From assembly GCF_031624395.1 (NCBI RefSeq), contig NZ_JAMQON010000006.1, forward strand, positions 62,001 through 126,000: a stretch of 64,000 bases of DNA, in the 5' to 3' direction. The stretch is from Halomicroarcula saliterrae (lineage in GTDB: Archaea > Halobacteriota > Halobacteria > Halobacteriales > Haloarculaceae). The stretch's first letter is position 1. The number at the start of each line of letters is the position of its first letter. Shown here piece after piece: positions 22,514-39,882 of the stretch. The notes under the pieces are model-generated. The model did no database searches, was not told the DNA's origin, and worked only from the letters and a program-made list of their open reading frames with translations. A program made the translations under genes and the position numbers.

Positions 22514-23614
22514 TTACCGGTCCCCTTCGAGCTGGTCTATCCGCGCCGCGAGGTCCTGGATATCCGTCTCTATCTTCGCGAAGTTCTCGTTCAGCGGCAC
22601 GTGCCACTCCAGCATCCCCTTCGAGGGCTTGTTGTACCCGCCGTACGTGTCGTCCGTGGTGTCGGTGTCGGTGGGCTCCTCTTCGGTCGGGGTCGGCTCC
22701 GTCCCGATTCGCTGACTGACGAGGTCACGGAAGCGGTCCGAGGACTGTTCGAGTCCGTCGGCGTCTCGCGGGAAGATGGTGTGGTAGTTGTTGTTCCAGA
22801 GCGTCTGGTACTCCCACCCGTTGTCGCGCCCGTAGTCCAGCATCTGCTGGATGAAGTAGGGGTTGTCGTAGCCGGAGGCGTTCGGGAAGGGGGTGCTGTC
22901 GCCCATACAGCCCCACTCGAAGGTGCCGCCGACTTTCGTGTTCCGCGCCTGTGCGAACTCCTCCCAGCGGCCGATGTCCGCCAGCTGGACCTCCTGCCAG
23001 GCCTGTTCGCGCTCCGCCTGCGTCGACGGACCGCCGTCGGTGTAACCGTACCACGTGTCGTAGAACGTGGGACAGACGAGCGGCTCGTCGGCGCCCGCGG
23101 GCCAGGACGGCGCATCGACCGGCCACGACTCGGGACCGACCCCCAGGTCAGCCCCGTCGGGGGAGAACGTGAAAGTGAACTCCGCCCCGTCGACCGACTG
23201 CATCTCCCGGACGACGCGGGCCAGTCCCTCAGCGTAGTTCGCCGGGTCGTTCGGGTAGCGGCCCGACCAGCTCATGTTGAACTCGCCGCTGGGCCTGATG
23301 ATGGTGTCCGCCATTCCGATATCGACGAGCTGCTGTGCGAGCTTCCGGTGCTTGTCGTCGTGTGTTCCGTCCGCCGCCGCCGAGTAGTCTCTCAGATTGC
23401 CCCCCTGAAACTCGTAGTGGAGCACTAGCTGCCGGCCGGTCTGCCCGAAGACGCGTTCGAGCGTCGCCCGTTTGTTCGAGTCGCCCCACGTGATACCGTC
23501 GAGGCCCCACTGTCCCTCGTTCCACGTCGTTACGATGAGGTCGACCTGCGTTCCGAGCCATGCTTCGATATCTTCGATTTCCGATTCGCGAATGCTGAGA
23601 ATTCCGTGTTTCAT
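22514..23614 (-). CDS. GH26-like glycoside hydrolase with C-terminal VPLNENF module
   Basis: A 366-aa protein without a signal peptide (MKHGILSIRESE). Residues ~1-300 are related to the GH26-like lipoprotein nearby: RPSGEFNMSW holds the likely acid/base Glu111 and GGTFEWGCM the likely nucleophile Glu233, with FTFTFSPDG and GYDNPYF also shared. An acidic Thr/Pro/Glu linker (about 305-323) leads to a 43-residue tail: Y-x-KPSKGMLEWHVPLNENF at about 327-345 followed by a short heptad-like helix. The same W-x-VPLNENF motif is at the N-terminus of the cluster B protein at 38628. How it leaves the cell is unclear. Confidence 0.78.
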   Translation of the reverse strand: MKHGILSIRESEIEDIEAWLGTQVDLIVTTWNEGQWGLDGITWGDSNKRATLERVFGQTGRQLVLHYEFQGGNLRDYSAAADGTHDDKHRKLAQQLVDIGMADTIIRPSGEFNMSWSGRYPNDPANYAEGLARVVREMQSVDGAEFTFTFSPDGADLGVGPESWPVDAPSWPAGADEPLVCPTFYDTWYGYTDGGPSTQAEREQAWQEVQLADIGRWEEFAQARNTKVGGTFEWGCMGDSTPFPNASGYDNPYFIQQMLDYGRDNGWEYQTLWNNNYHTIFPRDADGLEQSSDRFRDLVSQRIGTEPTPTEEEPTDTDTTDDTYGGYNKPSKGMLEWHVPLNENFAKIETDIQDLAARIDQLEGDR

Positions 23615-24140
23615 TGTGATGAAGTGTTGGTGGTAGTTCCGAATTCAGATACTAGTGGAATACTGTCAATCATCCAGTTAGTCGTGTCAGTGAGCCGGCC
23701 GCACCGACTGTCCGCCTCGATCTCTGCTGGTGGTTCTCCGTGGTCATCCAATAACTCCTAGTAGGCCAAATCTACTTAACGAAATTTACACGTATGCTGC
23801 TGAATAGCTACGCTTGGAGATAGTTGATGGCGTTTTCCGCGCCGTTTGTTTACCAGATAGAGAGCGGTAGGAACGTGCTACCTCAAGTTTTAGTTACACT
23901 ATACCGGAGCGGAGACGACCCTGAACCGGCGGTAAACTCGCCCGCTCGGAACAGTCAAATCTCTGCTACGAACGACGAGCTCCGACAGAAATAAAAGATA
24001 TCTGATGTATCCTAATACCGGCACAGCCCCGAGTGCGAACTGCGGTTCCGTCCGGGCCGAATGGCGCCCACCACGGCAGTCCGACGACCCGGTCCCCCCG
24101 CCGGGGCGCGCTGCGTGACGGGTCCTCGCTCTCGGTCGGC
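23615..24140. other. 526-bp AT-rich intergenic region between cluster A and the glucoamylase gene
   Basis: There is no gene. Most of 23615-24020 is clearly AT-richer than the flanks (for example CTACTTAACGAAATTTACAC near 23772 and GAAATAAAAGATATCTGATG near 23990). It contains the promoter of the leftward GH26-like gene at its left end and the downstream region of the leftward glucoamylase gene at its right end. The low GC and lack of genes fit a joint between imported and resident DNA. Confidence 0.5.
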
Positions 24141-27100
24141 CTACAGGCTCATCCGCCAGACGGTCGTTCCGGCCGCTTCGAGGTCCGCCTTGTCCGCGGC
24201 GGCGACGATAATCTGATTCTCGCCGGGTTCGACGGCCAGTGCCTCCTCGAACTTCCCGTCCTCGACGTCGACGATGACGCTGTCGACGGGCGTCTTGATG
24301 ACGACGCGAACGCCGGTCGTCTCACCTGAGACCACCAGTTCGTTGCCGCGGAACTGCGTGTCCACCCGCAGCGCCGGGCTGCGGTCGGGCTCGTTGAGCT
24401 CCTTCTCGCGGTAGCGCTCGTGGACGAAGTCGGGCGTCTCGACGGGCGTGCCCGCGCTGACGCCGTGGGCGAGCCGGATGTACTGGGCCATCGACCACGC
24501 GAGCGGGGTCGCCCCGCCGGTCCCCTGTCCGAACTCCCAGTTGTAGTCGGTGGCGTGTTCGCGGTCCCACACCTGCTCGGGAATCATCCGCCCGGAGTTC
24601 GCGAAGCGCTCCATGGCCCGAAGACAGACCTCCGGCTCGATGACGGGGTCGTCGAGTCGCAGTTCGTACTCCCCGCGCTCGCCGGTGAGGAGTGGCCACA
24701 GCCGGCCTTTCCCCTTGTGCTCGACCGACCACGGCGCACCGGGGTCGTCGCGGCCCCGCTCACCGTAGCCGTCGCCGTTGTACCGGTAGAACCCGGGCGA
24801 GTCCTCGACGTCGACGCGGATGGTGTCGTCGACCTCGGTGACGCTGTTTTGCATCACCTCGTCGTCGGCCGGCTTGATACCGAGCCGGACGAGGTCGAGG
24901 AACCCGCCGTCGATGATGTTTCGCTCGTCGAGGGTGGGGCCGTCGTTAGCGAGCGTCCGGAGGTGGCCCGCTTCGGGGTTGCCGTCCCGGGTGACCCGCG
25001 TGTAGTAGGGCGTGTTCTGGTGCTGGTCGGTCCCGGTCTCGGTGGCCGTCCAGTCCTCGACGTTGTTGGCCCAGTGATCGGCCAGCGCGAGCCAGACGAG
25101 GGCGTCGTCGTCCTCGCCCTCCTGCAGGGCGAGCTTGGCCGCACAGGCCAGCCCGGCGATCTCGGCCGCGATGGAGGACGGCGAGAAGCCGGCTTCCTCC
25201 TCCCAGCGCTCCTGGGCCGTCTGTGGCCCGTTCCGGGCCACGTAGTCGGCCGAGCGACGGAGGTTCTCGTAGCCGTAACTCACGTCGTCGAAGGTGATGC
25301 CCGCCTCGGCGAGGTGGTACGCCATCACCTGCGGGTAGGAGATGTTGTCCATCTGCTCGCCGCCCCAGCGGGTGAGGCCGTTCACGTAGGTGTTCTGCGG
25401 GATGAAGCCGGCCTCGTCCTGCTGGAACTCGTAGATGTACTCCAGCTGCTGGGCGGCGATATCCAGCGACCCGACGGTGTCGAAGGCGGTAAAGACCTGA
25501 TAGAGGTCCCGCGACCAGACGAAGTTGTAGCCGTAGTTTTTCGGCTCGCCGGCGTGGACCGCATCGCCCCACGGCACCGACGGCGAGGCGATAGACGCCC
25601 CGTGGTAGGTCTTGTCTTCGACCGCCATCAGGGTCATGATGGCCGCTCGGTACTGGTTTGCCAGCTCCGGATGCGCGTTGACCGAGTCGGGCAGCTCCTT
25701 GTCCGAGAGATAGTCGGCCCAGCTCTGTGCGTACCCTTCCTCGACCGTCTCGTAGCCGCGGTCCAACGCACCGTCGGCCTCGCCGAGCGCGGCGGCCGTG
25801 TCCGCCCGCCGGGCGAAGCCGAGCGCGACGGTCTCGTTGGCCGTCGACCCGGTGCCCAGGCGGCCGATGAGCACGACGTTCTCGCCGTCGACGGACTCGA
25901 CGGGCTCGGGCAGTTCGCCCTCGTTGTAGAGAGCGTTCAGACGCTCGCTGCCGGCCGCACCGACCGTGGCCCAGTCGAACCGGCCCTCGGCTGCCATCGC
26001 CATCGCGACCGAGAGGGCGTCGCCGTTCTCGTCGACCAGCAGGTCGTTGTGCGTCTCTGCGGTGTAGGCCTGTGGGTTCCGGGCGACGAGGTGGTAGTTC
26101 TCGTCCTCGCCGTACCGGAGCCCGCGGTCGAACCGCTCGGTGCTGGTCAGCGCGATGTTCGCGGCAGAGAAGACGTCGTAGCTGTGGCCGTCCGTCGCCG
26201 TGAACTCGACGCTCGCCAGGATTGCGTCGTGTTGCGGGTCGGTGGCGTAGTCGACGGTCAGCTCCCAGGCGTGGCCCTGTCCGTCGCCGGTCTCGGTGAA
26301 GACGTGTCGGAACAGGAGCGCCTCGTCGTCGACCGGTTCGACGCTGCGTTCGATGGTGTCGTTGCTGCGCCGGTCTTCCTTGTGGGTCCGGGCCGCGTAG
26401 TCGGACTCGTCCTTACACCGGATGATGAAATCGAAGGTCCGCAGGTTCAGCAGGTCCACCTGCGGGAACCGCGCCTCGGTCAGCGCGCCCTCGGTGAGCG
26501 TGAACCAGACCCGCGACGGGTCCTGCGTGTCGTGGTCGGCGACGGTCCCGATACCGAACTTCTCGCCGGTCGTCCACGTCGGCTCCTCGCTCGGCCCCTC
26601 GGTCGTCGAGGAGGTGGTCGGCAGGGCGTTGAGGTCGTCGAGCAGCGCCGTCGCGTGGAGCCGGATGGCGTGTGACCAGCCAAGCGGCGTCGCGCTGTCG
26701 AGCTCGCCCGAATCGAAGGCCTGCTCGGCCAGATAGCCGGCGTCGGTCGCCAGCGGGCCGTCGTCGGCGATGAGCTCGTAGAGGTCGCTGCTGCGGTTGA
26801 GGTAGGCCTCGCCGTTCCCGCCGCGCTCGTTCAGCATGACGCCGACCTGGGCGGCCGAGACCGCGCCGATGCCGGTCGTCACGGACCAGACTTTCTCGCC
26901 GTCCTGTTCCTGCATCCGCCAGCGGTCGCCCTCGTAGCGGATGAGCCCGGCGACCTGGCTGTGGGGCGGGTTCCGGAACAGGGTGTCCAGCGTCGTGCTG
27001 ACGTGGTCTGCCAGCCGGTCGACCTGGTCGTCCGTGAGGCCGGCGTCCTCGATGGCGTCGTACTCGCGGAACGCGTCGGTGAGTTTCAGCGCGGCGGCGT

Positions 27101-28676
27101 CGATACGGTGGTCGACTTCGCCGTCTGTCAGGCGCATCACGTACACCCCCATCTCCTCGTCCCAGAGGTTGTCCAGCCCGTCGATGACACGTTCGGCGCC
27201 GTGCAGACTCCGCTCGCGGATCTGGTTGGTCATGGGCGCTCGCGCCACGGCCGAGAACGCCTCGATGTAGGTCGCCGCGGTGTGGGCGAACTGCCCGATG
27301 GCGTCCTCCCAGACGTTCTGACACGGCGACGGGAGGTCGTTGTCCGCCACGTCCCGCGACATCGCGTCGACCGCCTCGACGATGGTGTCCCGAAGCTGGA
27401 CAGTCAGGTCGTCGCTGAGCCGGCCGTGTCGCGTCCGCAGCAGCGTCGCGAGGAAGGCGGTGACGGTGGCCGTCTGGTCGCCCTGGTACTCCGGGGAGTC
27501 CTCGTTGTGCTCGACGTTCGCGTTCGCCCACCCCGGCGCGAGCGAGCCGTCGGTCGCCCACACGCGGTGGGGCCAGGTGCCGTCGGCGAGCTGGCGCTCA
27601 CAGAGGAACTGCGCGCTCTCTTCGAGGATATCGTCGGTCTCCAGGTCGAGCCGGTCGCCGGCTTCGAGCAGGTGTCGCGAGACCGAGGCGTCGTCGCGGA
27701 ACCAGACGTAGCCGTAGCCGCCGGAGTTCTCGTAGAAGGGGTCGAACTCCGGCGCGGCGATTCGCCCGCCAGAGGGCGAGGACAGCAGGTCCATCACGCG
27801 CAGGTCGGTCCGGACGCTCTGGGAGCGCGGGAGCGACTCCGCGGTGTCGATGCGCGTCCGCTCGCGGGCGGACTCCCGCAGGTCGGAGGCCGTCGTGTGT
27901 GACTCCGCACAGACGCTGATATCGGCCATCGCCTGCTGTCGGTCCACCTCCGTGTGGTCGGACAGCTGCGTGATGAGTGTCGTGCTGTTGGAGCGGCCGG
28001 TCCGTTCGAGCGGTGCCGTCACGAGGAAATCGCCCGTGAGGCGGGTCTGGTCGCGCCGTTCGGTGCCTCGACGGCGCGGGAAGTAGATCGCGTCGTCGGC
28101 CAGAATCTCCCCTAGCCGTTCGGGCCGCTGGCCGTGGACCTGGTCCAGCCCGGTCGAGGCCGTCACGTAGTCGTGTTCCTGCCGGTGATACACTTCGAGG
28201 ACGCGGGAGTTGTCGGGGCCGCCGTCCTCGTGGATGAGCGCCCCGACGCCGGTGTCCTTGCCCTCGGGGGCCATCGTCGCGAAGGCGACGAGTTTCGCGT
28301 CCCGCGGGACCGTCCCGCGTGCCTCGACGTGTGTCGCGTGTGCGCGACCGAGCGTCAGGTCGTACTGGTGGACGGTGAAACTCCCCGCGTCGTACTCCGT
28401 CTCCACCAGCCGGGTGTCACGGTAGTAGTGCTGTCTGATCGTCTCCAGGTCGCTGAACCAGCGTGTCTCGTCCCCTATCTGGATACCCAGCTGGGAACGG
28501 TCGATACCGTACAGTCCGGACAGTGAGTCGGAGTAGTCCCGCAGCGAACCGTTCTCGCCGATATGTACCAAGCGATCGCCATGTCCCGAGAACGAGCCTG
28601 ACGCAGTCTTGCTCTCCTCAGGGAAGCGCTCGCCACGAGCTTTCTTGTACTCGTTGAGCGCTGTCGTAAGCCGCAT
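24141..28676 (-). CDS. Double-module GH15 glucoamylase/glucodextranase
   Basis: A 1511-aa protein holding two GH15 units. Unit 1: beta-sandwich (about 1-290) and (alpha/alpha)6 barrel (about 300-690) with YGYVWFRDDASVSRHLLEAG, general acid Glu457 in QNVWEDAIG and base Glu651 in LAEQAF, then DSATPLGWSHAIRL. Unit 2: sandwich (about 700-970) and barrel (about 1030-1420) with YNFVWSRDLYQVF, acid Glu1159 in RWEEEAGFSPSS and base Glu1367 in IPEQVWD. A C-terminal Ig-like domain (about 1425-1511) follows. Both units keep their catalytic pairs. It releases glucose from starch-like glucans. No signal peptide is visible, so it is probably cytoplasmic. Frame is unbroken, so the fusion is real. Confidence 0.93.
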   Translation of the reverse strand: MRLTTALNEYKKARGERFPEESKTASGSFSGHGDRLVHIGENGSLRDYSDSLSGLYGIDRSQLGIQIGDETRWFSDLETIRQHYYRDTRLVETEYDAGSFTVHQYDLTLGRAHATHVEARGTVPRDAKLVAFATMAPEGKDTGVGALIHEDGGPDNSRVLEVYHRQEHDYVTASTGLDQVHGQRPERLGEILADDAIYFPRRRGTERRDQTRLTGDFLVTAPLERTGRSNSTTLITQLSDHTEVDRQQAMADISVCAESHTTASDLRESARERTRIDTAESLPRSQSVRTDLRVMDLLSSPSGGRIAAPEFDPFYENSGGYGYVWFRDDASVSRHLLEAGDRLDLETDDILEESAQFLCERQLADGTWPHRVWATDGSLAPGWANANVEHNEDSPEYQGDQTATVTAFLATLLRTRHGRLSDDLTVQLRDTIVEAVDAMSRDVADNDLPSPCQNVWEDAIGQFAHTAATYIEAFSAVARAPMTNQIRERSLHGAERVIDGLDNLWDEEMGVYVMRLTDGEVDHRIDAAALKLTDAFREYDAIEDAGLTDDQVDRLADHVSTTLDTLFRNPPHSQVAGLIRYEGDRWRMQEQDGEKVWSVTTGIGAVSAAQVGVMLNERGGNGEAYLNRSSDLYELIADDGPLATDAGYLAEQAFDSGELDSATPLGWSHAIRLHATALLDDLNALPTTSSTTEGPSEEPTWTTGEKFGIGTVADHDTQDPSRVWFTLTEGALTEARFPQVDLLNLRTFDFIIRCKDESDYAARTHKEDRRSNDTIERSVEPVDDEALLFRHVFTETGDGQGHAWELTVDYATDPQHDAILASVEFTATDGHSYDVFSAANIALTSTERFDRGLRYGEDENYHLVARNPQAYTAETHNDLLVDENGDALSVAMAMAAEGRFDWATVGAAGSERLNALYNEGELPEPVESVDGENVVLIGRLGTGSTANETVALGFARRADTAAALGEADGALDRGYETVEEGYAQSWADYLSDKELPDSVNAHPELANQYRAAIMTLMAVEDKTYHGASIASPSVPWGDAVHAGEPKNYGYNFVWSRDLYQVFTAFDTVGSLDIAAQQLEYIYEFQQDEAGFIPQNTYVNGLTRWGGEQMDNISYPQVMAYHLAEAGITFDDVSYGYENLRRSADYVARNGPQTAQERWEEEAGFSPSSIAAEIAGLACAAKLALQEGEDDDALVWLALADHWANNVEDWTATETGTDQHQNTPYYTRVTRDGNPEAGHLRTLANDGPTLDERNIIDGGFLDLVRLGIKPADDEVMQNSVTEVDDTIRVDVEDSPGFYRYNGDGYGERGRDDPGAPWSVEHKGKGRLWPLLTGERGEYELRLDDPVIEPEVCLRAMERFANSGRMIPEQVWDREHATDYNWEFGQGTGGATPLAWSMAQYIRLAHGVSAGTPVETPDFVHERYREKELNEPDRSPALRVDTQFRGNELVVSGETTGVRVVIKTPVDSVIVDVEDGKFEEALAVEPGENQIIVAAADKADLEAAGTTVWRMSL

Positions 28677-28804
28677 GGATAGCTAAAGACAACGCTCTCA
28701 ATAAACCCCTACGATTTCGCGCAATCTTGCAGGTCCGTCGTAACAGCCGGTCTGCGGGGCCGCCCCCTCGATATCGGCGGGTTACCGGCCTCGCCCTGCT
28801 GCCC

Positions 28805-30802
28805 TCACTGCAGTAGGCTGTCGGCCGGCAACACCGCGACGCTGTCGACAGTGACGGCGCCGTCGCCGGTGCCGACGCCCTCGCCCGAGACGAGGTCGTG
28901 GTCGGCGGCCGCCGCCGGCACCGTGACCGTCGCGGGCGCCTCGCCGAAGTTCAGCACGACGACGACCGCCTCGTTCTCCGTCGCTCGCGCGTAGGCGACG
29001 ACGCGGTCGTCGTGGCCGGACTCGACCTCGTAGTCGACCCGCTCCAGCGCGCCGTCCGTCGACAGCGCGGGGGTGTCCGTTCGCACGTCGGCCAGCGAGC
29101 TGAAGTACTCGCGCAGGTCGTCGTCGGCGTGGTCCCACGCGAGGTCGTCGCGTCGGCCCCGCTGACCGAACTCCTGTCCCGCGTACACCATCGGCGCGCC
29201 GGGCAGGGTGAAGGTCGCGGCGGCCGCGGCTTTCGCGGCCTCCTTGCCGTAGTCGACGATGTATCGGGTCTCGTCGTGGTTCTCGGCGTACACCATGAAC
29301 GAGGCGTGGTCCGGGAAGCCGGCCTCGCCGCGCTCGTCGATGGCGTCCAGGACGAGCTCCGCGTCCTCGCCGCCGCCGACCTGCCGGAGCGAGAAGTACG
29401 TCGTCGAGTCGAAGTGCATGTCGAAGAGGCCGGCCTGGAAGTCAGCGATGTAGGGGATGGTCTCGTCCAGCAGGAGGAAATCGTCCGCCTGGTCGTTGCA
29501 GTAGTCGTGTATCTCCCGCCAGAAATTGTTGGGGACCGCCCACGCCATGTCACAGCGGAACCCGTCGACGAGGGGCTGCCACTTCTCGACGGCGTCGAGC
29601 AGGTGCCGTCGCACCGGGAGATGGTCGAAATTGAAGTTCGCGATGTGCTCCCACTCGAAGTACGTCTCGGGTTCGGTTTCGCCCCGCCATTCGTACCAGT
29701 CGCGGTACTCGCTGTCCGTGTCGTTGACGGCGGCCTGGAAGTGCGGGTGGGTCCGCGCCGAGTGGTTACAGACGAGGTCGAAGAGGACCTTGATACCGCG
29801 CTCGTGGGCGGCGTCGATGAACCGCTCGTAGTCCTCGCGGCTCCCCAGGTCGTCGGCGATAGAGAGGAAGTCGACGATGTTGTAGCCGTGGGGCGCGTGG
29901 TCGTTTTGCAGTACCGGCGTGAGCCAGATGGTGTCGACGCCCAGCGACTCGATGTAGTCGAGCCGGTCGACGATGGCGTCGAAGGCCGCGCCCTCCTCGC
30001 CGCCGAAGGTCCGGATGTAGATCTCGTAGATGACCGACTCTTCGGCCCATTCGGGCGGGTGGTACGGCTGGCTGGTGGTGACCGTCTGGTTCGCGCGGAC
30101 GGCCTGTCCGCCGTCGGTCACGACCTCCTCCTCGGCGCGCTCGAACTCGGCGGCGTCGGCGACGCTGTAGCCGTCCTCACCGATAGCGACCGCGTGGATG
30201 CGGGCGCGGTCCGGCAGCGCGTCGAGGGGAATCCGCAGTTCGCGGTCGGAGACGGTGACCGTGCTCGGGTCGAACGCGTCCCGGTCGTCGAGCAGGAACT
30301 CGACCTCCAGGTCGTCGGCCGTCTCGGTCGCGTTCGGGTGGGGTCTGGCGTCGGCGCGGACGACGGCCTCGTCGCCTTCGACGACGGGCGTCAGCGTGAG
30401 CCGCGGCCGACCGCCCTCGCCTTTCTCCCGCGTGCTCAGTTCGCCGTAACTGCCGGAGCCGCTCCGACCGCCGCTGACGCCGCCACTGACGCCGCCGCTC
30501 ACTCGTCCGCTGTGGCGGCCGGAGACGCCCGACTCGCCGTAGACGCCGGACGGCGAGAGCGCGCTTGGGAACGCGCGCACCGTGAGCCGGTGGTCGCCGT
30601 CCGGGGCCGAGAGCGCTGCGACGTAGGTGCCGGGCACGTCCGGAACCAGTTGTTCGACGGGGTCGTCCCCGAGGGCCGCCTCCGAGCCCTCGGGCGTCTG
30701 TACGAGCTGCCACGTGTAAGTCGCCGCTGGGTCCGGGTCCCGCGGTGCGAGTTCGACCTCGTCACCGGCGGCCACGAACCGCGGCGGTCCAGGATGATGC
30801 AT
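28805..30802 (-). CDS. GH13 alpha-amylase with N-terminal extension
   Basis: A 665-aa protein starting at the ATG at 30802 (MHHPGPPRF). Residues 1-75 form an Ig-like domain, about 80-125 are a Ser/Gly/Arg-rich low-complexity linker, 130-215 a second beta domain, and 230-665 the GH13 barrel. Catalytic residues are visible: nucleophile Asp418 in DGFRCDMAW, acid/base Glu447 in LLLDETIP and Asp510 in YAENHDETR. VCNHSARTHP is the conserved region I. It has no signal peptide and probably degrades maltodextrins inside the cell. It lies 128 bases upstream of the glucoamylase gene on the same strand. The longer frame to 31288 is not used. Confidence 0.92.
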   Translation of the reverse strand: MHHPGPPRFVAAGDEVELAPRDPDPAATYTWQLVQTPEGSEAALGDDPVEQLVPDVPGTYVAALSAPDGDHRLTVRAFPSALSPSGVYGESGVSGRHSGRVSGGVSGGVSGGRSGSGSYGELSTREKGEGGRPRLTLTPVVEGDEAVVRADARPHPNATETADDLEVEFLLDDRDAFDPSTVTVSDRELRIPLDALPDRARIHAVAIGEDGYSVADAAEFERAEEEVVTDGGQAVRANQTVTTSQPYHPPEWAEESVIYEIYIRTFGGEEGAAFDAIVDRLDYIESLGVDTIWLTPVLQNDHAPHGYNIVDFLSIADDLGSREDYERFIDAAHERGIKVLFDLVCNHSARTHPHFQAAVNDTDSEYRDWYEWRGETEPETYFEWEHIANFNFDHLPVRRHLLDAVEKWQPLVDGFRCDMAWAVPNNFWREIHDYCNDQADDFLLLDETIPYIADFQAGLFDMHFDSTTYFSLRQVGGGEDAELVLDAIDERGEAGFPDHASFMVYAENHDETRYIVDYGKEAAKAAAAATFTLPGAPMVYAGQEFGQRGRRDDLAWDHADDDLREYFSSLADVRTDTPALSTDGALERVDYEVESGHDDRVVAYARATENEAVVVVLNFGEAPATVTVPAAAADHDLVSGEGVGTGDGAVTVDSVAVLPADSLLQ

Positions 30803-31308
30803 ATATGTTTCTCTGCGATTAGGAGTGTCTTGGTCCTTGCGGTAAGTCACTGGTACGTTCGCCGTCGACGACCGGCTGGGACGGCTCAGGCGCCGTCTCC
30901 ACCACTGACTGTGGCTGTCTCTCCGCTCAGCGAGAGCGCCGTCCCTCCGACGGCCCCGTCGTGGTGGGGGTCCCTGTGTCGGGCGGCGAGCAGCGCACAA
31001 AGCCCACCTTTCTGTCACGGGCGCTCCTGAAAGCTCAGTATTCGAGACCGACCGGCCCGACCGCCACCTGTCAAATTCCGTGATATTGCTAGCGAATCTG
31101 ACGAGCTGGACGCGGCTCGTCGGATAGTCACAGCCATCCGCCATTGGGGCTAGACTACCCAAACATTCAGCAATTCTAACACGTTTGGTGGTGGTAACTA
31201 TCATCTGTCTAACAATGTACATCAGTGAATCATCATCGTACGACATGAGGAAGTCTCTACGACCGCTAGCGCACAGCGATACCACCACTCGCGCAACGGA
31301 GGCCGCCG
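30803..31308. other. Divergent intergenic region between amylase and UDP-sugar dehydrogenase genes
   Basis: About 500 bases without a gene. The half near the amylase gene is GC-rich; 31075-31240 is AT-richer (TTCAGCAATTCTAACACG, CTGTCTAACAATGTACATC) and probably contains the rightward promoter of cluster B. A GGAGG ribosome site lies just before the ATG at 31309. No inverted repeat of note was found. Confidence 0.5.
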
Positions 31309-32652
31309 ATGGAACGAACTGAAAGCCCGGCTTGCTGTGTCGTTGGCTTGGGTTACGTCGGACTCAATCTCGCCCACATGCTCGCACAGTCGGGCTATCC
31401 CACGGTAGGCTACGATATCGATACACAGAAGATAGCCGCGTTGCAACAGTCCCACGATCCGACCGGCGAGCTAGACGCGGACGCGCTCCCCCACGACGAC
31501 CTGACGTTTACGAGTTCGGCCGACCACATCGCCGACTGCGAGTTCGTCTTCGTGGCGCTGCCCTCGCCGCTCGACGACAGTCTGGCCCCGGACATCTCGG
31601 TCCTCGAAACGGCGAGCGAGACCGTCGGAGCGAACCTCTCCGACGGTGCGATCGTCGTCTACGAGTCGACGCTGTACCCGGGCGCGGTCCGTGAGGACCT
31701 GCGTCCGGCTCTGGAGCGGGGCGTCGGGGAGCGGCCTGTCTCGTTCAGCGTGGGGTACTCCCCGGAGCGAATCGCGCCCGGAGAGGACCGGAGCCGCGTC
31801 TCCGACGCGATGAAGATAGTCAGCGCCGAGGACGAACAGACCCGCGCCCGCATGGCCGCGCTGTACGAGGACATCTCCGAGGTGGGCGTCTACCTCGCCG
31901 AGTCCATAGAGACCGCCGAGGCCGCCAAATGCCTCGCAAACGTCCAGCGCGACGTCAACATCGCCGTCGTCAACGAGTTCACGATGGGTGCCCGCCAGCT
32001 CGACATCGACCTCGACCCCCACGAGGTGCTGGAGGCCGCGGGCACGAAGTGGAACTTCCACGAGTACACGCCCGGTATCGTCGGGGGCCACTGCATCCCG
32101 GTCGACCCCCACTATCTCCGCGACCGGTTCGAGGCGGCGGGCTTCGAGCCCTCGGTGCTCACGAACGCCCGCATCGTCAACGAGAAGATGCGGAGACACG
32201 TCGCCGCGGTCACGGTCGAAGCACTGGAAACCGCCCAGAAAACCGACGAGACACCCGAATCGCCCACCGTTCGGGGCGACGGTGGCCGCGAGTACAGTCC
32301 CCGGCTCCTCGTCCTCGGCCTCGCCTACAAGTCCGGCCTCGTGGACACGCGCAACTCACCGGCGTACGGCACCTGTGAGACGCTCGAAGCCAACGGCGTG
32401 GAGGTCGTCGGATACGACCCACACCTCACCCGGGAGCAGGCGCGCGAGGAGTTCGACTTCGAGATACAGTCGGAGGTCGACTTCAGCGGCTTCGACGGCG
32501 TCCTCGTGCTCACCCCACACGAGCGAATTCGCTCGCTGGACCTCCACCGGGCCGCGGGGGAGATGACCGAGGACCCGGTCCTCGTGGACGTCGACAACGC
32601 CTTCGACAGCGACAGAGTGACAGCGGCCGGCTTCAGATACCGGAGGCCCTGA
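31309..32652 (+). CDS. Nucleotide-sugar 6-dehydrogenase (UDP-HexNAc type)
   Basis: A 447-aa UDP-sugar dehydrogenase that oxidises C6 of a UDP-hexose(NAc) to the uronate with NAD. CVVGLGYVGLNLAHML is the NAD site, VALPSPLDD and VYESTLYPG follow, GYSPERIAPGE is conserved, and the catalytic Cys262 lies in VGGHCIPVDPHYL. The C-terminal domain shows LGLAYKSGLVDTRNSPA. The overall pattern resembles the WbpA/TviB (UDP-N-acetylhexosamine) branch more than UDP-glucose dehydrogenase, but this is not certain. GGAGG precedes the start. It opens the cluster B operon; the next gene begins one base after its stop. Confidence 0.92.
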   Translation: MERTESPACCVVGLGYVGLNLAHMLAQSGYPTVGYDIDTQKIAALQQSHDPTGELDADALPHDDLTFTSSADHIADCEFVFVALPSPLDDSLAPDISVLETASETVGANLSDGAIVVYESTLYPGAVREDLRPALERGVGERPVSFSVGYSPERIAPGEDRSRVSDAMKIVSAEDEQTRARMAALYEDISEVGVYLAESIETAEAAKCLANVQRDVNIAVVNEFTMGARQLDIDLDPHEVLEAAGTKWNFHEYTPGIVGGHCIPVDPHYLRDRFEAAGFEPSVLTNARIVNEKMRRHVAAVTVEALETAQKTDETPESPTVRGDGGREYSPRLLVLGLAYKSGLVDTRNSPAYGTCETLEANGVEVVGYDPHLTREQAREEFDFEIQSEVDFSGFDGVLVLTPHERIRSLDLHRAAGEMTEDPVLVDVDNAFDSDRVTAAGFRYRRP

Positions 32653-32653
32653 G

Positions 32654-33721
32654 ATGTACAAGGGACACACGGTCGGTGTCGTCGTTCCCGCGTACAACGA
32701 GGCGGCGTTCGTGGGCGACGTCATCGCCGAGATACCCGCGTTCGTCGACCACGTCTACGCGATAGACGACGCCTCGACGGACGAGACGATGGCGGCGATG
32801 ACCGACGCGGCCCGCGAGCGCTCGACGGCCGGGACGGTACGCGACGGGACACAGCCCACCGAACGGGCGGCGACACGCCCCTCGCCGGGCGACGACGAGA
32901 CGCCGCCGGTGTCGCACGACGGGGGCCACGAGCTGGGGGTCGAGGACGACCGCGTCGGCGACTCAGTGACCATCGGGCGCGTCACGTGTCTCCGCCACGC
33001 GACCAACCGGGGCGCCGGCGGCGCCATCAAGACCGGCTACGCGGCCGCCCTCGCGGACGGCATGGACATCGTCGCGACGATAGACGGCGACGGGCAGATG
33101 GACAGCACGACGCTCCCCGGGCTGCTCGAACCGCTCGTCTCCGGAGCGGCCGGCTACGCCAAGGGGAACCGGTTCAGCGACGGCGAGATAACCCGCGAGA
33201 TGCCGCCCTTCCGCCTCCTGGGCAACGTCTTGCTGACTGGCCTCACCCGCATGTCGACGGGGTACTGGGGGTTGCTCGACCCCCAGAACGGGTTCACCGC
33301 GGCGACCCGCGAGGCCCTGCTCGCCGCCGACGCGGCGAGCATCTGGGAGTACTACGGCTACATGAACCAGCTGACGGCCCGCTTCAACGCCGTCGGGGTC
33401 GACATCGCCGACGTCCCGATGGAGACGGAGTACGGCGACGAAGAGAGCGACATCGAGTACCTGCCCTACATCAGGAAGGTGTCCGCCCTGCTGGTCGGGG
33501 CACTCGTCCGCCGACTCGGTCGGAAACGGGACGCCGGGGCCACCGCGACGGCGGCCTGCTATCTGCTCGCTGTCGTCTGTTTCGTGGGCTGTGCTGTCAG
33601 GGCCCTCCGGCGCGGCGGCGGTGCCGGGATGGGGCTGGCCAGTGTGGTCGGGGTCACGGCGGGCGCGCTCGTCGACCGCGTCAGCGGCCCGACCGTCGTC
33701 CGATGGGAGGAAGAGCCGTGA
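32654..33721 (+). CDS. Dpm1-like family 2 glycosyltransferase with acidic insertion
   Basis: A 355-aa GT2. VGVVVPAYNEAAFVGDVI, YAIDDASTDET, HATNRGAGGAIKTGYAAAL and ATIDGDGQMD (metal site) follow the dolichyl/polyprenyl-phosphate sugar synthase pattern, then GNRFSDG and LLDPQNGFTAATREAL. Between the second and third strands there is an insertion of about 45 residues (roughly 58-102), rich in Thr, Pro, Asp and Glu and probably disordered. Two hydrophobic segments at 300-345 suggest membrane attachment. It likely charges a polyprenyl-phosphate carrier or adds the first sugar. Confidence 0.88.
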   Translation: MYKGHTVGVVVPAYNEAAFVGDVIAEIPAFVDHVYAIDDASTDETMAAMTDAARERSTAGTVRDGTQPTERAATRPSPGDDETPPVSHDGGHELGVEDDRVGDSVTIGRVTCLRHATNRGAGGAIKTGYAAALADGMDIVATIDGDGQMDSTTLPGLLEPLVSGAAGYAKGNRFSDGEITREMPPFRLLGNVLLTGLTRMSTGYWGLLDPQNGFTAATREALLAADAASIWEYYGYMNQLTARFNAVGVDIADVPMETEYGDEESDIEYLPYIRKVSALLVGALVRRLGRKRDAGATATAACYLLAVVCFVGCAVRALRRGGGAGMGLASVVGVTAGALVDRVSGPTVVRWEEEP

Positions 33722-33809
33722 GCTCCGCCCCGCACGGTGGCCGCGGCGCTCGGTCGGCAGGGAGTCGTCGACGGCGAGTGCCCCGCCGCTCCGTCAGCGA
33801 GGTGGGCCG

Positions 33810-34670
33810 ATGAAGGTCGACCGCTATCCGGAGTCGCCGGCCGAGCCGACGGCCTGTCTCACGTTGGACCTGGAGCCGAGCTTCGACGTGGGGTCCCCGG
33901 CCGTCAGACGGCAGGTCTTCCACCACTTGGACGACTACATCGAGCGGTTCCAGCGCCGTGACCTGCCGGTCAGCATGTTCGTCGTCGGCCGGACCGTCGA
34001 GACGTACCCGGAGCTTATTCGGCGCCTCGACGGGGCACTGGACGTGGAGTTTCACCTCCACTCGTACTCCCACGACATGTCCGGCGAGGCGGACATCGAG
34101 GCGGAGATTCGCCGCGGCGTCGAGGCCTTCGAGTCGGTGCTCGGTCGGACGCCAGTCGGTTACCGGGCGCCGCGCTATATCGCCACCGCCTCCGACCTCG
34201 AAGCGCTCTCGGCCGCCGGCTTCGCGTTCGACAGCAGCATCTGTCCGTCCTACCGCCCCGGCGTGTACGACCACCTCGACAAGCCCACGGAGCCGTTCTA
34301 TCCGGCCGTCAGTCCGGACCTGCTGGAGCTCCCCATCTCCGTGCACCCGCGGCTGCGGGTCCCGATTATCCAGAGTTTCCTCAAGCTTCTGGGGCGCCCG
34401 TATCTCCGACTGCTCGAACGCTCGTCGCTCCCGAACCCCCTGATATACAACTCCCATCTCCACGACTACTACCGGACCGACGCCCACGACATGCTCTCCC
34501 CGTTCAAGCGGCTTCTCTTCTCCCGGAACATGGCCGACTCGTTCGAGCTGTTCGAGCAGTTCGTCGACCTCTTGGAGGACCGGAACTACCGCTTCCGGAA
34601 GCTGAGCGACGTGGCAGCGACGCTCTCCGAAACGGAAGGCTCCGCGTCGGTCGTCTCCCCTCGGAACTGA
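33810..34670 (+). CDS. Polysaccharide deacetylase family protein (CE4-like)
   Basis: A 286-aa NodB-homology protein. I place the start at the ATG at 33810; upstream in-frame sequence overlaps the GT2 gene and is not typical. The metal site is CLTLDLEPSFD (Asp20 and Glu22, where many members have DD), with HSYSH giving His84 and His88. GYRAPRY is the RxP motif. It would remove N- or O-acyl groups from a glycan or glycan precursor. No signal peptide is visible, so a cytoplasmic or lipid-linked substrate is likely. It lies between GT2 and flippase genes of cluster B. Confidence 0.88.
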   Translation: MKVDRYPESPAEPTACLTLDLEPSFDVGSPAVRRQVFHHLDDYIERFQRRDLPVSMFVVGRTVETYPELIRRLDGALDVEFHLHSYSHDMSGEADIEAEIRRGVEAFESVLGRTPVGYRAPRYIATASDLEALSAAGFAFDSSICPSYRPGVYDHLDKPTEPFYPAVSPDLLELPISVHPRLRVPIIQSFLKLLGRPYLRLLERSSLPNPLIYNSHLHDYYRTDAHDMLSPFKRLLFSRNMADSFELFEQFVDLLEDRNYRFRKLSDVAATLSETEGSASVVSPRN

Positions 34671-34751
34671 CTCAGGCATGCGACGAACAGACACCTCCCG
34701 AACGGTCGACAGCGCGCCCGCGACGGGCCGGCTCGACGCCGGAGGACCGCC

Positions 34752-36233
34752 ATGGTAGCCCTCGGCGGGCTCTCCCGGGACGTGGTCTCGGAGACCGGGG
34801 CGCGGCTCACCTACTATCTCACGTCCGGGCTGGTCATCATCTTCCTCTCCCGGCAGCTGGCGCCCGCCGAGTACGGGACGCTGTTTCTCGCGCTCTCGGT
34901 GCTCACCGTCAGTCGACTGTTCAGCAGCGTCGGGCTCGCGAAGGCCGCCGCCAAGAACGTCTCGACCTCGCTGGAGTCGGGCGACGGGCAGGTCCGCCAC
35001 GTCGTCCTGAGCTCGCTCACCTACAATCTCGGCACCATCGCGGCTGTCGCGACGGCCGTCGCGCTGGGGGCCGGCGCCATCGCGGCGACGCTCGGGGCGC
35101 CGGCCATCGAACCGCTCCTGGTCCTTGGGACGACCTACGTCGTCTTCGCGACGCTGTACAACTACACCCGCGTCGTGCTCCAGGGGTTCCGGGAGATACT
35201 CCACAGCGCGCTCGTGTACGCGAGCGAGGGGGTGGCCAAACTGCTCGCGGTGGCGCTCCTCGTCACCCTCGGCTACGGCGTGTACGGCGCCCTCGTCGGC
35301 TACGTCGTCGGGTTCACGGTCGCCGCCTTCCTCGGTCTCTGGCTCCTCGCTCGCCATCTGCCCGGCCCGGCCGCCACCGCCCAGCTCGAAGACGGCCTGA
35401 AGCGACGCGTTCTCCGCTACAGCGTCCCACTGACGGTCACGCGGGGCGCCTGGGTGCTCGACCGCGAGGTCGATGTCATCCTTGTCGGCTACCTGCTGAC
35501 CCCGGCCGTCGTCGGCTACTACGCCGTCAGCAAGCAGATAGTCACGTTCTGTAGCGGCTTGGCTGGGTCGGTCGGGTTCTCGCTGGGCCCCCAGTTCGAC
35601 GAGGAGACCGTCGCCCGGAGCCGGGACCACGCGCGCCGGACCTACGAGACCGTGCTCGTCTCCGTCCTGCTGGTCTACGTTCCGGCCGTCGCCGGGCTCG
35701 CCATCCTCGCCGAGCCGGTAGTGCTCTCGGTGTTTGGCACGCAGTACCGCGGCGTCGTCCCCATCCTGCAGGTGTTCTGTGCGGGCATCGTGTTGATGTC
35801 GGTCACCGAACTGACCGAGGACATCCTCGACTACCTCGGCCGGGCGAACGCCCGCGCCGCGTTCAAGGGGGTGACCTCCGTCGGGAACGTCGCTCTCAGC
35901 GCCCTTCTGATATGGCGGGTCGGCGCGGTCGGCGCGGCCGTCGCCACCGTCGCGATGCAGGCCATCTACGCCGCGCTGTGTCTCTACGTGGTCCACACGG
36001 AGATCGGCCTCCGGCCCCGGCGGCTGCTGTACCGGGGCGGACAGGTCGGCTGTATTACCGCGGTGATGTCGGCCGTCGTCCTGTCCCTGTTGCGGTACGT
36101 CGACGGTCCCGTCACCATCGGTGCCGTCGCCGTCTGCGGGGCCGGTGTCTGGGCACTCCTCGCGAAAACCGGCGGCCTCCTCGACGGCGACGCGCTCCCC
36201 AGTGGCGGGCTGTCGGGACAACGGGGCGACTGA
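34752..36233 (+). CDS. Polysaccharide flippase (Wzx/MOP family), cluster B
   Basis: A 493-aa polytopic protein with about 14 hydrophobic segments. The N-terminus reads LSRDVVSETGARLTYYLTSGLVIIFLSRQLAPAEYGTLFLALS, and GAWVLDREVDVILVGYLL is typical of this flippase family. GGAGG sits seven bases before the ATG. A 26-codon open frame (34678-34758) ends inside the start region but has no support as a gene. The job would be to move lipid-linked oligosaccharide outward. It is related in type to the cluster A flippase. Confidence 0.92.
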   Translation: MVALGGLSRDVVSETGARLTYYLTSGLVIIFLSRQLAPAEYGTLFLALSVLTVSRLFSSVGLAKAAAKNVSTSLESGDGQVRHVVLSSLTYNLGTIAAVATAVALGAGAIAATLGAPAIEPLLVLGTTYVVFATLYNYTRVVLQGFREILHSALVYASEGVAKLLAVALLVTLGYGVYGALVGYVVGFTVAAFLGLWLLARHLPGPAATAQLEDGLKRRVLRYSVPLTVTRGAWVLDREVDVILVGYLLTPAVVGYYAVSKQIVTFCSGLAGSVGFSLGPQFDEETVARSRDHARRTYETVLVSVLLVYVPAVAGLAILAEPVVLSVFGTQYRGVVPILQVFCAGIVLMSVTELTEDILDYLGRANARAAFKGVTSVGNVALSALLIWRVGAVGAAVATVAMQAIYAALCLYVVHTEIGLRPRRLLYRGGQVGCITAVMSAVVLSLLRYVDGPVTIGAVAVCGAGVWALLAKTGGLLDGDALPSGGLSGQRGD

Positions 36234-36262
36234 CTCGCGGGCGAATCGCTCCGGATGCCGTC

Positions 36263-36299
36263 ATCGTCCGGTATCCGGGGGACGTTATCGTCCGGTATC
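36263..36299. repeat. Short direct repeat after the flippase gene
   Basis: ATCGTCCGGTATC occurs at 36263-36275 and again at 36287-36299, a period of 24 bases, followed in each case by a CCGGG block. It lies 30-66 bases after the flippase stop. Too short to classify. Confidence 0.5.
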
Positions 36300-36514
36300 T
36301 TCCGGGTAACCAAGGTTGTATTCCATCCATAGCAGTCTACCATGGCACGTGCGTATCAGCAGGTTACGAGCCCGCGTCCCCGGAGAGACCGACGCCCCCG
36401 CGTCCGGGGGCGGGGCCGCAGCCGGGCGGTCTCTCGGTCCCGGGGCCGTCCCGCCACTCGGTCCGAACCGTCCGGAAACACGCTCCGGTCTCACCCCTCG
36501 TCACTGGCCCACCG

Positions 36515-38461
36515 ATGACACTGCTACCCTCGGCCAGGTCGCTCCCGGCCTACGGCGAGATATCGCGCGCACTCCCGTATCTGGCGCCGGTCGTCGCGGT
36601 CTGTGGGACGGCGCTGCCGGCCCTGCTCGGCCTGCCGTCGCTCACTATCGTCTCGCTGTACGCGACGGTCCCGATACTCGTCGTCTCCGCGGCGTACTTC
36701 GCGACGAGCGGCGCTGTCGACCTCGCAACGCCGACGGCCGAACAGCTCTCGGACCGGGCGGTAGAGCTGTCCATCAGCCTCTATTTCACGCTCTTCGGGG
36801 TCGCGATACTGCTCGCGTCGGCGGGGCAGGTCCGGCCCATGTCGTTCTATCTTCTGGTCGGCGTTCTCGCCACAATCGTGCTGTCACAGTGTCTCTGGGC
36901 CGGGCTCACGCCGTCGCGAGTCGCTCTGATCCTCTTCGAGACGAGCGGGCTATTGCTCGGCGTCGTCTGGTCAGTCAGCCTGAAATACCACTACTTCTTC
37001 GGGCGGACCGACGTGTTCCCCCACCACCGCCTCATCGAGGGGCTGCTCAGTAGCCACCGCGTCACCTCGGTCTTCGGTGCGTACCAGCCGTTCCCGCTCT
37101 GGCACGTCTTCGTGGGGTTCCAGACGATGCTGTACGACAGAGCTTTCGGGCCGCTCACGCTCTCTTTCGTCCTCACCGGGCTCCTCTTCGCCACCGCCCC
37201 GCCGGTGGTGTACGCGCTGGCCCGCCGGTTCCAGTTCCCCCGGCGCACCGCGCTGGTCGCCGCGCTCGGGACGGCGCTCAACCCGTTCGTCATCCTGTAC
37301 GGGATGTACTCGATCCCCCGCAGCGTCACGTCGCTGCTGGTCCCGTTTTGCCTGCTACTGCTGCTCGTCGAGGACCGGCGGGCCTCGCTGCTCTACGCGG
37401 GGCTGCTTGTCGGTGTGGCCGTCTACCACACCATCAGTCTCCCCTACATCTTCGTCACTGTCGGCTGTTACTTCGCGGTCGAACGGTTCCTCACGCTGTC
37501 CGGGCGGCGAGCCGACGGGCCGGCCTTCCCCGTGGTCCCTCTCTGGGCGGTCCTCGCTATCCCGGTGGTGCAACTCTCGTACTGGGCGGTCGCCGCGCCG
37601 GACCTCGTCGCCCGTGTCGTGGGCCTCGCCGCCGGCCCGCCCACCAGCGGCGACGGCGGGGGCGCCGTCGCCACGCCGTTCATCGAGTTGCCCGTCCACG
37701 AACTGGTGAACTACGTCCCGTACGGCCTCATCGTCTTCTTCGTCCTGTTCGGCGTCGTCCAGAGCACCAGACTGCAGCGGCTGTCCAGTCGCGGTAAGGC
37801 GCTGTTGCTGACCGCGCTGCTCGTCACGGCCGTCTCGGTCCCGGGCCCGGCCCTGCTGGTCAGTGTGGTGTCGAGTGTCACGTCCGACATGGCGTTTCGG
37901 GCCGGGCAGTACACCTACCCGTTCGTGGCTATCGCCTTCGCCGTCGGGGTCGTCTCCATGGTCAGTACCGTCGGGCGGCGCCGGGTCGGTGCCGCGCTCG
38001 TCTGCCTGCTGGTCTTCTCGACGGCCTTCTTCGCCGTCTCGAACGACTTCGTCGCCTCGGACAACCCGGTCACCGAGCGGGCCGACTTCTACAACTTCTA
38101 TCTCAGCGAACAGGAGACGACGAGCTACGCCACGATCGCCGGCCACACGGACTCCGCCATCACCAGCGACTACATCACCTGCCGCTACGTGAACAACCCG
38201 GGCAGCGGTCGCTGTGACATCATTCAGGCTGACCCGGTCGCCGGGCGGTTACACGACCCGCCGGATTCGGTCGTCGTCGTCCGCAGTGACGAACTCCGCG
38301 AGCGACCGCTGAGCGTCTATCCGACGCCCGAACCCGTCGAGAACCCGCCGTACTCCAACACGCGGGACTCGCTCTCGCGTCAGTCTCCGGTCTGGGACGA
38401 CCTGGACAGCTACAACCGGGTGTACGATTCCACGGACGTGAGCGGCTACACCACGGGGTGA
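36515..38461 (+). CDS. Large polytopic membrane protein, cluster B (GT-C or polymerase-like)
   Basis: A 648-aa protein starting at the ATG at 36515 (MTLLPSARS); in-frame sequence upstream overlaps the flippase gene and lacks coding character. About 12-13 hydrophobic segments span residues 20-510. The first large loop contains KYHYFFGRTDVFPHHRLIEGLL and FGAYQPFPLWHVFVG, matching the position of the FYHYFPGLHT loop in the cluster A paralogue. The soluble tail includes ITSDYITCRYVNNPGSG. A polymerase or membrane glycosyltransferase role is inferred from fold type and from the absence of another candidate. Confidence 0.78.
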   Translation: MTLLPSARSLPAYGEISRALPYLAPVVAVCGTALPALLGLPSLTIVSLYATVPILVVSAAYFATSGAVDLATPTAEQLSDRAVELSISLYFTLFGVAILLASAGQVRPMSFYLLVGVLATIVLSQCLWAGLTPSRVALILFETSGLLLGVVWSVSLKYHYFFGRTDVFPHHRLIEGLLSSHRVTSVFGAYQPFPLWHVFVGFQTMLYDRAFGPLTLSFVLTGLLFATAPPVVYALARRFQFPRRTALVAALGTALNPFVILYGMYSIPRSVTSLLVPFCLLLLLVEDRRASLLYAGLLVGVAVYHTISLPYIFVTVGCYFAVERFLTLSGRRADGPAFPVVPLWAVLAIPVVQLSYWAVAAPDLVARVVGLAAGPPTSGDGGGAVATPFIELPVHELVNYVPYGLIVFFVLFGVVQSTRLQRLSSRGKALLLTALLVTAVSVPGPALLVSVVSSVTSDMAFRAGQYTYPFVAIAFAVGVVSMVSTVGRRRVGAALVCLLVFSTAFFAVSNDFVASDNPVTERADFYNFYLSEQETTSYATIAGHTDSAITSDYITCRYVNNPGSGRCDIIQADPVAGRLHDPPDSVVVVRSDELRERPLSVYPTPEPVENPPYSNTRDSLSRQSPVWDDLDSYNRVYDSTDVSGYTTG

Positions 38462-38553
38462 CCCGCGGCCGGGCCGCCGACCGCTCGTTCCCGTACCCAG
38501 ATACTCGGCAGCTGTTGCTCAATCGAGTACGAGCTGGTGGCGTGAAAGATACG

Positions 38554-38609
38554 CTTAAGTATTTAAATACAGCCATATATAAAAATATGCGAAAGGTTCA
38601 TAAATACCT
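38554..38609 (+). promoter_or_regulatory. AT-rich promoter with stacked TATA-like elements
   Basis: This is among the most AT-rich spots in the window: TTAAGTATTTAAATA at 38554-38568, CATATATAAAAATATG at 38574-38589 and TTCATAAATACC at 38598-38609. The last box is centred about 25 bases before the GTG start at 38628, as expected for a leaderless transcript. The upstream boxes may be alternative promoters or a regulator site. Confidence 0.65.
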
Positions 38610-38627
38610 GTTCGCGACCAGCAAGAC

Positions 38628-39755
38628 GTGACAGAAAATCACGGATACGACACACCGGAACAGGGGACGCTTAACTGGAACGTCCCGCTCAACGAGAACT
38701 TCGAGCAGCTCGACATCGACGTAGAGATACGGGACCAGGAGGGCCAGCTCGATACGTACCAGCCAAAGGAGGGCGCGAAGTTCTTCGCGCTCGATACGGG
38801 GCACGTCTTCGTCGGCGACGGCGAGTCGTGGACGCGCGCGTCGCTCAGCACGCTCTCGGTCGACGATTCGTTCCGCCTGCCGACGCTGGAGACGGACCCG
38901 TCCGACCCGGCCGTCGGCGAGCTGTGGTTCAGGGGCGACCTCGGCGAGCTCCGCGTCCAGACTGACGGCGGCCCGCAGGCCCTGACCCGGGCCGCGACTG
39001 ACGACGAGGAAGAGCCGTCCGAGTCGGACGCGACGTTCGACGTCATCGAGCCCTTCGACGACGACAGCTGGGCCGACACCTTCGGCGAGGTGTGGGACTA
39101 CGGCGTCGGCGGCAACACGGAGATACGGGATATCGACGGCCGGTCGGGCAACCAGCTCCAGATGCGAGTCCCGGGCGGCGAGAACCGCGGCGTCTACACC
39201 GTCCACAACCACGCGAACCGGGCCGGCGACGCCCCGACGAAGTGTTACCACCAGTTCTTCATGCGGTTCCGGCCGGGGTTCTACGACAACCTCGACGACG
39301 ACGGGAAACTCCCCGGGTTCGCCGGGCGCGACGGCACCGACGAGGGGGCCGGCGGCGAGCCGGCCGACGGGACCGGCTGGTCGACACGGATGGGGTGGGA
39401 CGACCCGTGGGACCACGACGGCTCGGACATCCCGCTCGACTGGTACGTCTACCACATGGACGCGAGCGGCTCCTACGGTGACCACGAGTTCATCACCCTG
39501 CTGGAGGAGGGCCGGTGGTACCGCATCGAGCAGTACATCGACCTGGGGACGCCCGACACCAGGGACGGCGTGTTGCGGTGCTGGGTCGACGGGGAGCTCG
39601 AATACGACCGGACGAACTTCAGGTTCAGGGAGTCCGGCGGCAACGACGTCCAGTGGAGCTGGTGGGACTTCTACCACGGCGGCGGCAACACCCCCTCCGG
39701 CGACATCTACGTCCAGTTCGACGACCTCAAAATCAAACGCGGCGGGATGCCATAG
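38628..39755 (+). CDS. Lectin/lyase-fold protein with N-terminal VPLNENF module
   Basis: A 375-aa protein with a GTG start (VTENHGYDT). Residues 7-25 hold Y-x-TPEQGTLNWNVPLNENF, followed by a short region with DVEIRD and FALDTGHVFVGDGESW (about 50-70). After an acidic linker, residues ~140-375 look like a concanavalin-A-like jelly roll of the polysaccharide-lyase-14 kind: KCYHQFFMRF, DDGKLPGFAG, GRWYRIEQYIDLG, LRCWVDGELEYD and WWDFYHGGG. No signal peptide is visible. The N-terminal module is shared with the C-terminus of the GH26-like protein at 22514. It may bind or cleave the cluster B polymer; activity untested. Confidence 0.75.
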   Translation: MTENHGYDTPEQGTLNWNVPLNENFEQLDIDVEIRDQEGQLDTYQPKEGAKFFALDTGHVFVGDGESWTRASLSTLSVDDSFRLPTLETDPSDPAVGELWFRGDLGELRVQTDGGPQALTRAATDDEEEPSESDATFDVIEPFDDDSWADTFGEVWDYGVGGNTEIRDIDGRSGNQLQMRVPGGENRGVYTVHNHANRAGDAPTKCYHQFFMRFRPGFYDNLDDDGKLPGFAGRDGTDEGAGGEPADGTGWSTRMGWDDPWDHDGSDIPLDWYVYHMDASGSYGDHEFITLLEEGRWYRIEQYIDLGTPDTRDGVLRCWVDGELEYDRTNFRFRESGGNDVQWSWWDFYHGGGNTPSGDIYVQFDDLKIKRGGMP

Positions 39756-39882
39756 ACCCGCCCGGTAACGTCCGGATACCGTCGCTCACCGGTCCGCCAG
39801 TGTCGCGAGCGCACGCCTCGACGGTCGCGGTAACCTGTGCTGAACAAAACCTCGCCATCGCATCAAGGCGGGTACCGACACG

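Follow-up and report, generated by a model that had tools for sequence, protein, structure and literature searches.

A two-part docking joint of viral tails appears to have been co-opted in haloarchaea, where Tat lipoproteins, we infer, export and anchor glycan enzymes that lack signal peptides of their own; we put the probability of this scenario, binding and export included, at roughly 0.64. One half of the putative joint is the PLNENF module, borne by the signal-less cargo and consisting of a short helix that is usually followed by an Mtd_N-like hairpin domain. The other half is a Tyr-Gly (YG) repeat on a carrier with a Tat signal, mostly a lipoprotein and often one with a CBM6/35 or LamG domain. 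Carrier and cargo would be made from neighboring, often overlapping genes, binding of module and YG tail would take place before export, in the cytoplasm, the complex would leave the cell in folded form through the Tat pathway on the signal of the carrier (hitchhiking), and the glycan enzyme would then be held at the cell surface by the lipid of the carrier.

The tight pairing of the genes for module and YG tail is a direct and strong observation, and physical binding of the tail by the module is the step that this pairing suggests. Co-export of the tagged enzymes by Tat, their anchoring at the surface and a threefold stoichiometry would be further parts of the same scheme. The sequence-only reading of this DNA had proposed a portable docking or export tag; portability and the lack of signals in the bearing proteins stood, and what that account missed is the partner, the Tat-signal protein with the Tyr-Gly repeat, which is new here. 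No earlier description of such a system was found in the open-licence literature searched. If correct, the scenario would explain the exit route of a class of archaeal surface enzymes without signals, provide archaea with a counterpart of cohesin-dockerin for modular assembly at the surface, exemplify the reuse of a viral tail joint in cell-surface architecture, assign a role to many proteins annotated as 'hypothetical' or 'tail fiber domain', and offer a plug-and-socket for protein engineering at high salt.

The putative docking module and the proteins that bear it

The window, that is, the whole stretch of DNA analyzed, comprises 64,000 nt of Halomicroarcula saliterrae (assembly GCF_031624395.1, contig NZ_JAMQON010000006.1, positions 62,001-126,000 of the forward strand) and includes the following features:

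18949..20082, minus strand: GH26 homologue that lacks the module and has a Tat lipoprotein signal (RRTFLSRLAAGCAGAAASSSLAGC)
22514..23614, minus strand: GH26-like protein, 366 aa, without a signal, with the short docking tag at its C-terminus
22556..22639, minus strand: the short docking tag at the C-terminus of the GH26-like protein, module positions 6-33
31309..41019, plus strand: surface-polysaccharide genes flanking the PL14-type gene in the open reading frame list (putative nucleotide-sugar dehydrogenase, GT2, deacetylase-like protein, flippase, membrane protein and GT4; apart from the PL14 gene, names given by eye from the sequence)
38628..39755, plus strand: PL14-type protein, 375 aa, GTG start, without a signal, with the full docking module at its N-terminus
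38628..38843, plus strand: the full 72-residue docking module, a PLNENF helix followed by Mtd_N-like hairpins

The GH26-like protein ends with YNKPSKGMLEWHVPLNENFAKIETDIQDLAARIDQLEGDR and the PL14-type protein begins with MTENHGYDTPEQGTLNWNVPLNENFEQLD; the two copies, compared by eye, share 12 of 19 residues over Y..P..G.L.W.VPLNENF. This shared motif, and its placement at opposite ends of the two proteins, had been noticed from the sequence alone, and both observations were borne out. The same contig has a third copy at a distance of 55 kb (C6:155003-155218), where it forms the N-terminal part of a 442-aa protein. A profile built from two N-terminal copies only recovered the C-terminus of the GH26-like protein in a search of the whole genome (4.2 Mb) at E=3.5e-7, and a 22-row profile did so at 2.6e-9; because these are whole-genome values, a chance match of the motif could be rejected.

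The N-terminal copies span 72 residues, the motif helix plus the Mtd_N-like hairpins, with the consensus Y.TP..G..dW..PLNeNFe.iD.dVEiRD....Y.PK.GAKF.ATDTG.vY.GDG..W. The C-terminal copies, found in GH26-like and pectate-lyase-like enzymes, correspond to the first ~30 residues only, and two loci (L049 and L050) encode three short copies in tandem. In a receptor-binding fibre of a phage, Mtd_N forms the N-terminal domain, and (trimeric) viral fibres have domains of this kind at their N-termini. Mtd_N matches 17 of 22 modules at E up to 1 (best 9.8e-6), the copy in the window by itself scoring below the curated cut-off. In the AlphaFold2 model of the window PL14-type protein, which was used for the module only given its low overall mean pLDDT of 55.9, a helix is predicted at residues 22-31 with low confidence and the hairpin part (residues 31-70) has a mean pLDDT of 86-94. 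Comparison of the predicted module with known folds yielded 7chu (Z 5.2), Mtd (Z up to 4.9) and hyaluronidases (Z up to 4.1), all in the middling range. At these Z values, the predicted fold may resemble the N-termini of phage fibres and trimerisation domains. The likeness to tail fibres that had been offered initially as a resemblance only proved to be the key, in view of the Mtd_N matches and of the viral fibre and baseplate pairs described below.

The PL14-type protein is assigned to its family by a match to Pfam PF21294 (5.4e-11, 43.1 bits against a cut-off of 27), and its lyase activity is predicted. For the GH26-like protein, the Pfam scan gave no match of its own, the cut-off of PF02156 not being reached; it is called no more than GH26-like, being homologous to 18949-20082 (29% identity across 296 columns, E=3e-17), which passes Pfam GH26 at 1.3e-6.

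In a profile search, the module was detected in 61 of the 146 genomes of the family, in 103 of 391 genomes and 43 of 86 genera of the class, and in 11 of 295 genomes drawn from the phylum, one of these 11 being a short match outside the order. After masking of the module, BLAST of the remaining sequences delineated ~29 unrelated protein families, among them the PL14 type, GH26-like proteins, pectate-lyase/beta-helix proteins, S74-chaperone fibres and others without a Pfam name, which rules out the module as part of a single catalytic family. Its position varies (N-terminal and full, C-terminal and short, or three in tandem), and in 88 of 96 module proteins it begins within ten residues of the start. 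A simple hydropathy and twin-arginine scan detected a Tat signal in none of the 96, in agreement with the claim that the bearing proteins lack signal peptides; the single borderline hydrophobic stretch belongs to an over-extended ORF. The suggested link to glycan clusters held in part: many copies of the module are located next to glycosyltransferase, flippase and sugar-nucleotide genes, with GT2 and GT4 each present in 31 of ~50 module loci, but S74-type fibre proteins with the module (L062, L063, L081-L085) lie outside such clusters. Thus, the module was found neither confined to one catalytic family, nor on proteins with signal peptides, nor devoid of a glycan link.

Module and Tat signal tend to replace each other among homologues. 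Among the 19 intact module-less homologues of the tagged enzymes, 17 are Tat proteins or lipoproteins, including all 13 in the 442-aa family (with in-frame upstream starts allowed), both of those in GH26 and both of the pectate-lyase-like ones; fragments, a frameshifted PL14 gene and a distant match in L114 were left out of this count. The same contrast is seen inside the window, between the Tat protein at 18949-20082 and the tagged one at 22514-23614. The two exceptions (L053 and L054) have neither module nor signal. The proteins encoded at L053 2880-4187 and L054 10434-11720 display an alternative N-terminal motif, W..G..K.R..G.W..VGA.

The Tyr-Gly tail and its Tat carriers

Inspection of the genes upstream of modules brought up Tat-signal proteins, for the most part lipoproteins, in which the signal is followed by a GYGG motif and the C-terminus forms a YG-repeat tail. 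The usual tail is DDYGxxGYGxxGYGG, and in the canonical form, [DN][DE]YGxxxYGxxxYGG, YG occurs three times at a spacing of five residues. Among 114 distinct cellular module genes, 61 are accompanied by a YG carrier gene at a distance of up to 160 nt, always on the same strand and in five cases downstream of the module gene; in many of these pairs, stop and start overlap. A natural pair is also present on pHH400 of Haloarcula hispanica, with HAH_RS18945 as the CBM carrier and HAH_RS18950 as the cargo. The remaining 53 genes, among which are both the GH26-like and the PL14-type genes of the window, have no adjacent carrier. Outside the family, a directly adjacent carrier was found at 8 of 20 chosen loci and at one further locus (L183), and divergent modules of the THSPDM type with an adjacent tail are accompanied by YG[SN]P tails in 4 of 4 cases.

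A blind search with the tail only (23-position profile) retrieved 68 places in the 146 genomes, and in 54 of these a module follows on the same strand at a distance of 9-164 nt, with ~1.5e-4 expected per match. Tail and module also co-occur across genomes (44/17/5/80; Fisher p=9e-18, a value that overstates independence given that the genomes are related), with a tail match and no module match, at the thresholds used, in five genomes. As a control, a YG tail was present on 2 of 425 adjacent same-strand upstream neighbors of ordinary genes. By home-made scripts, which were used for both gene calls and Tat calls, a Tat signal was scored in 70 of 76 C-tail candidates, against a loose background of 21%; inspection by eye showed that, of the other six, three are Tat proteins that the script had overlooked, one is a truncated call and two are false positives.

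The bodies of the carriers are unrelated to one another and contain LamG, CBM6/35 or PPC domains, or next to nothing (79-87 aa); minimal carriers, such as those of L079 and L109, have little beyond the anchor, a spacer and the YG tail. A family for the tail was sought in Pfam and NCBIfam and none was found, the carrier matches being to other domains or low complexity. Eight loci (L134-L141) encode a YG-tail Tat protein and have no module gene that could be detected in the neighborhood, some of them in genomes without any module match. In an AlphaFold2 model of a genomic stop-read-through pair of tail and module (A6), the module is folded and the tail is unplaced (pLDDT ~46). At L162, a transposase-like gene (MLADLLSENYEADLEESWENERTATPVRAF...) occupies the expected carrier site upstream of the module gene 2746-3105.

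Viral counterparts and alternative explanations

In viral contigs, the module is found on the fibre and the YG repeat on a baseplate or tail-tube protein, encoded by neighboring or nearby tail genes. Such pairs were identified in five contigs: L146 combines a fibre bearing the module with the YG protein MSHVGYGRGGYGSGTYG; in L148, a YG protein ending with TYGYSEFGYNENGYGGVW is followed directly by the module gene; L147 has a WG version of the repeat together with a divergent module; in L047, a tail-tube protein ending with GYGQGGYGGDV precedes the module gene; and L151 contains a further pair. For the viral YG proteins, which like the other proteins of these contigs were translated and inspected gene by gene, matches were to baseplate PHROGs, DUF2612 or Phage_tube_2; in four of the five contigs, Baseplate_J genes are located nearby. 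The homologue of the L148 YG protein in phi92, gp146, has no YG repeat at its ends, and therefore the repeat is an add-on rather than a universal feature. Among annotated phage records, the search for relatives of the full module gave one weak match, in Tunturi_4, and the adjoining tail genes that were read there have no YG repeat. On a plasmid of Natronosalvus amylolyticus (L090 27278-28953), a T4 gp19-like tail-tube gene (PF06841, 5.4e-29) is located directly upstream of the gene for a module/S74-type fibre, which is followed by a YG protein; other annotated tail genes are absent within the 49 kb shown. L116 and L123 contain look-alikes of this arrangement. These few cellular loci thus have a tail or baseplate gene next to the module; most others, including the window, lack one. 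Transfer from virus to cell would be the simplest reading.

Four other explanations have to be considered. The least improbable of them, although still unlikely, is that docking occurs only outside the cell and that the signal-less enzymes exit by another route; about half of the module genes, both window genes included, lack an adjacent carrier, and carriers acting in trans are plausible. However, the module loci showed no recurring second gene for secretion, the carriers are Tat proteins, that is, substrates of a route that exports folded complexes (PMC4273604; PMC10924467), and the frequent gene overlap suggests assembly before export. Somewhat less probable is a cytoplasmic tag, whereby the enzymes would stay inside and trim lipid-linked glycans, with the adjacency of carrier genes reflecting shared regulation only. 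The lack of signal peptides and the many module loci that are glycan biosynthesis clusters would fit this explanation, but the minimal carriers consist almost only of anchor, spacer and YG tail, the module-less homologues are exported lipoproteins, and extracellular occurrence is the rule for S74/YadA-like fibres and pectate-lyase folds.

The Mtd_N similarity, the likeness of the fold to fibre and trimerisation domains, and the gp19-like gene beside the module/S74 fibre in L090, with its look-alikes, could also be taken to indicate a plain trimerisation domain of relic viral fibres, which would only assemble the protein, in genes that are remnants of viruses. This appears improbable given that the hairpin part is missing from the short tag, which occurs at C-termini or in tandem, that most loci are glycan clusters devoid of tail genes, and that the YG tail recurs on unrelated carriers. 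Finally, the glycan-active partners and the CBM-bearing carriers are compatible with a module that binds glycans and is linked to YG proteins merely through operons; we consider this very improbable because module and YG repeat recur together in viral tails, where their natural role is fibre attachment, and because YG tails are present on carriers without any other domain.

Known systems and candidate carriers in Halomicroarcula saliterrae

The proposed docking joint between tagged enzymes and Tat carriers has likenesses to three known systems. In the cohesin-dockerin system, glycan enzymes bear a docking tag, the partner of which belongs to a surface protein, sometimes one with CBMs. The haloarchaeal arrangement is similar in that a small tag is found at either end or repeated, with the partner on a putative surface protein that may have CBMs, but this partner is a YG-repeat peptide and the cargo lacks a signal peptide; no cohesin or dockerin domains were among the Pfam matches of the scanned module proteins and carriers. 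The resemblance to the joint between fibre and baseplate of tailed viruses extends to the motif, the Mtd_N-like hairpins and the YG repeat on the baseplate or tube protein, whereas in cells glycan enzymes take the place of the fibre and a Tat lipoprotein that of the baseplate protein, and most loci lack tail genes. With regard to threefold stoichiometry, we tentatively propose that the three YG units of a Tat lipoprotein hold a trimeric fibre-like enzyme, three enzymes with a single tag each or one triple-tag chain (as in L049 and L050), in a cellulosome-like, glycan-processing surface assembly; the viral joint would have been domesticated as a general two-part code for export and anchoring. 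This extension is possible, though doubtful. Co-export of signal-less subunits in Tat heterodimers is established in bacteria (PMC4273604; PMC10924467), for example in PaoABC of E. coli (PMC4273604), and the likeness lies in signal-less subunits beside a Tat-signal partner, with a proposed exit as a folded complex. Here, too, the carrier has the Tat signal and the cargo does not (70/76 and 0/96, respectively), but Tat hitchhikers are dedicated subunits of one enzyme, whereas the portable tag and tail mix unrelated cargo and carriers.

Relatives of the window enzymes do have carriers close by. A tagged GH26-like protein that is 46% identical to that of the window over its whole length, tag included, is encoded in L176, beginning 39 nt downstream of a Tat lipoprotein carrier that ends with EPEYGVVGYGEAKYGGQAS. 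In four genomes (G408, G243, G273 and G430), a carrier belongs to the same cluster as PL14-type and C-tagged enzymes, and in L178 and L179 PL14-type relatives have a carrier a few kb away in the same cluster. The H. saliterrae genome encodes two carriers. One, C6:155236, pairs with the third module copy; the other, C1:522050 (L113 5042-5827; G000:C1:522041-522826), is an orphan YG-tail Tat lipoprotein, relatives of which (L095, L125-L127) are followed by a gene for a 188-aa module protein that is absent from the H. saliterrae locus. The two enzymes of the window may use a carrier encoded elsewhere, such as C6:155236 or C1:522050.

Another gene couple in the same genome (L114 4810-6452; G000:C1:544309-545951) consists of a 118-aa Tat lipoprotein gene that overlaps by 4 nt the start of a gene for a 429-aa protein, which lacks a signal and has a different N-terminus (MSNQIELRNENGEIIALD...); the two may form a second docking pair of this type.
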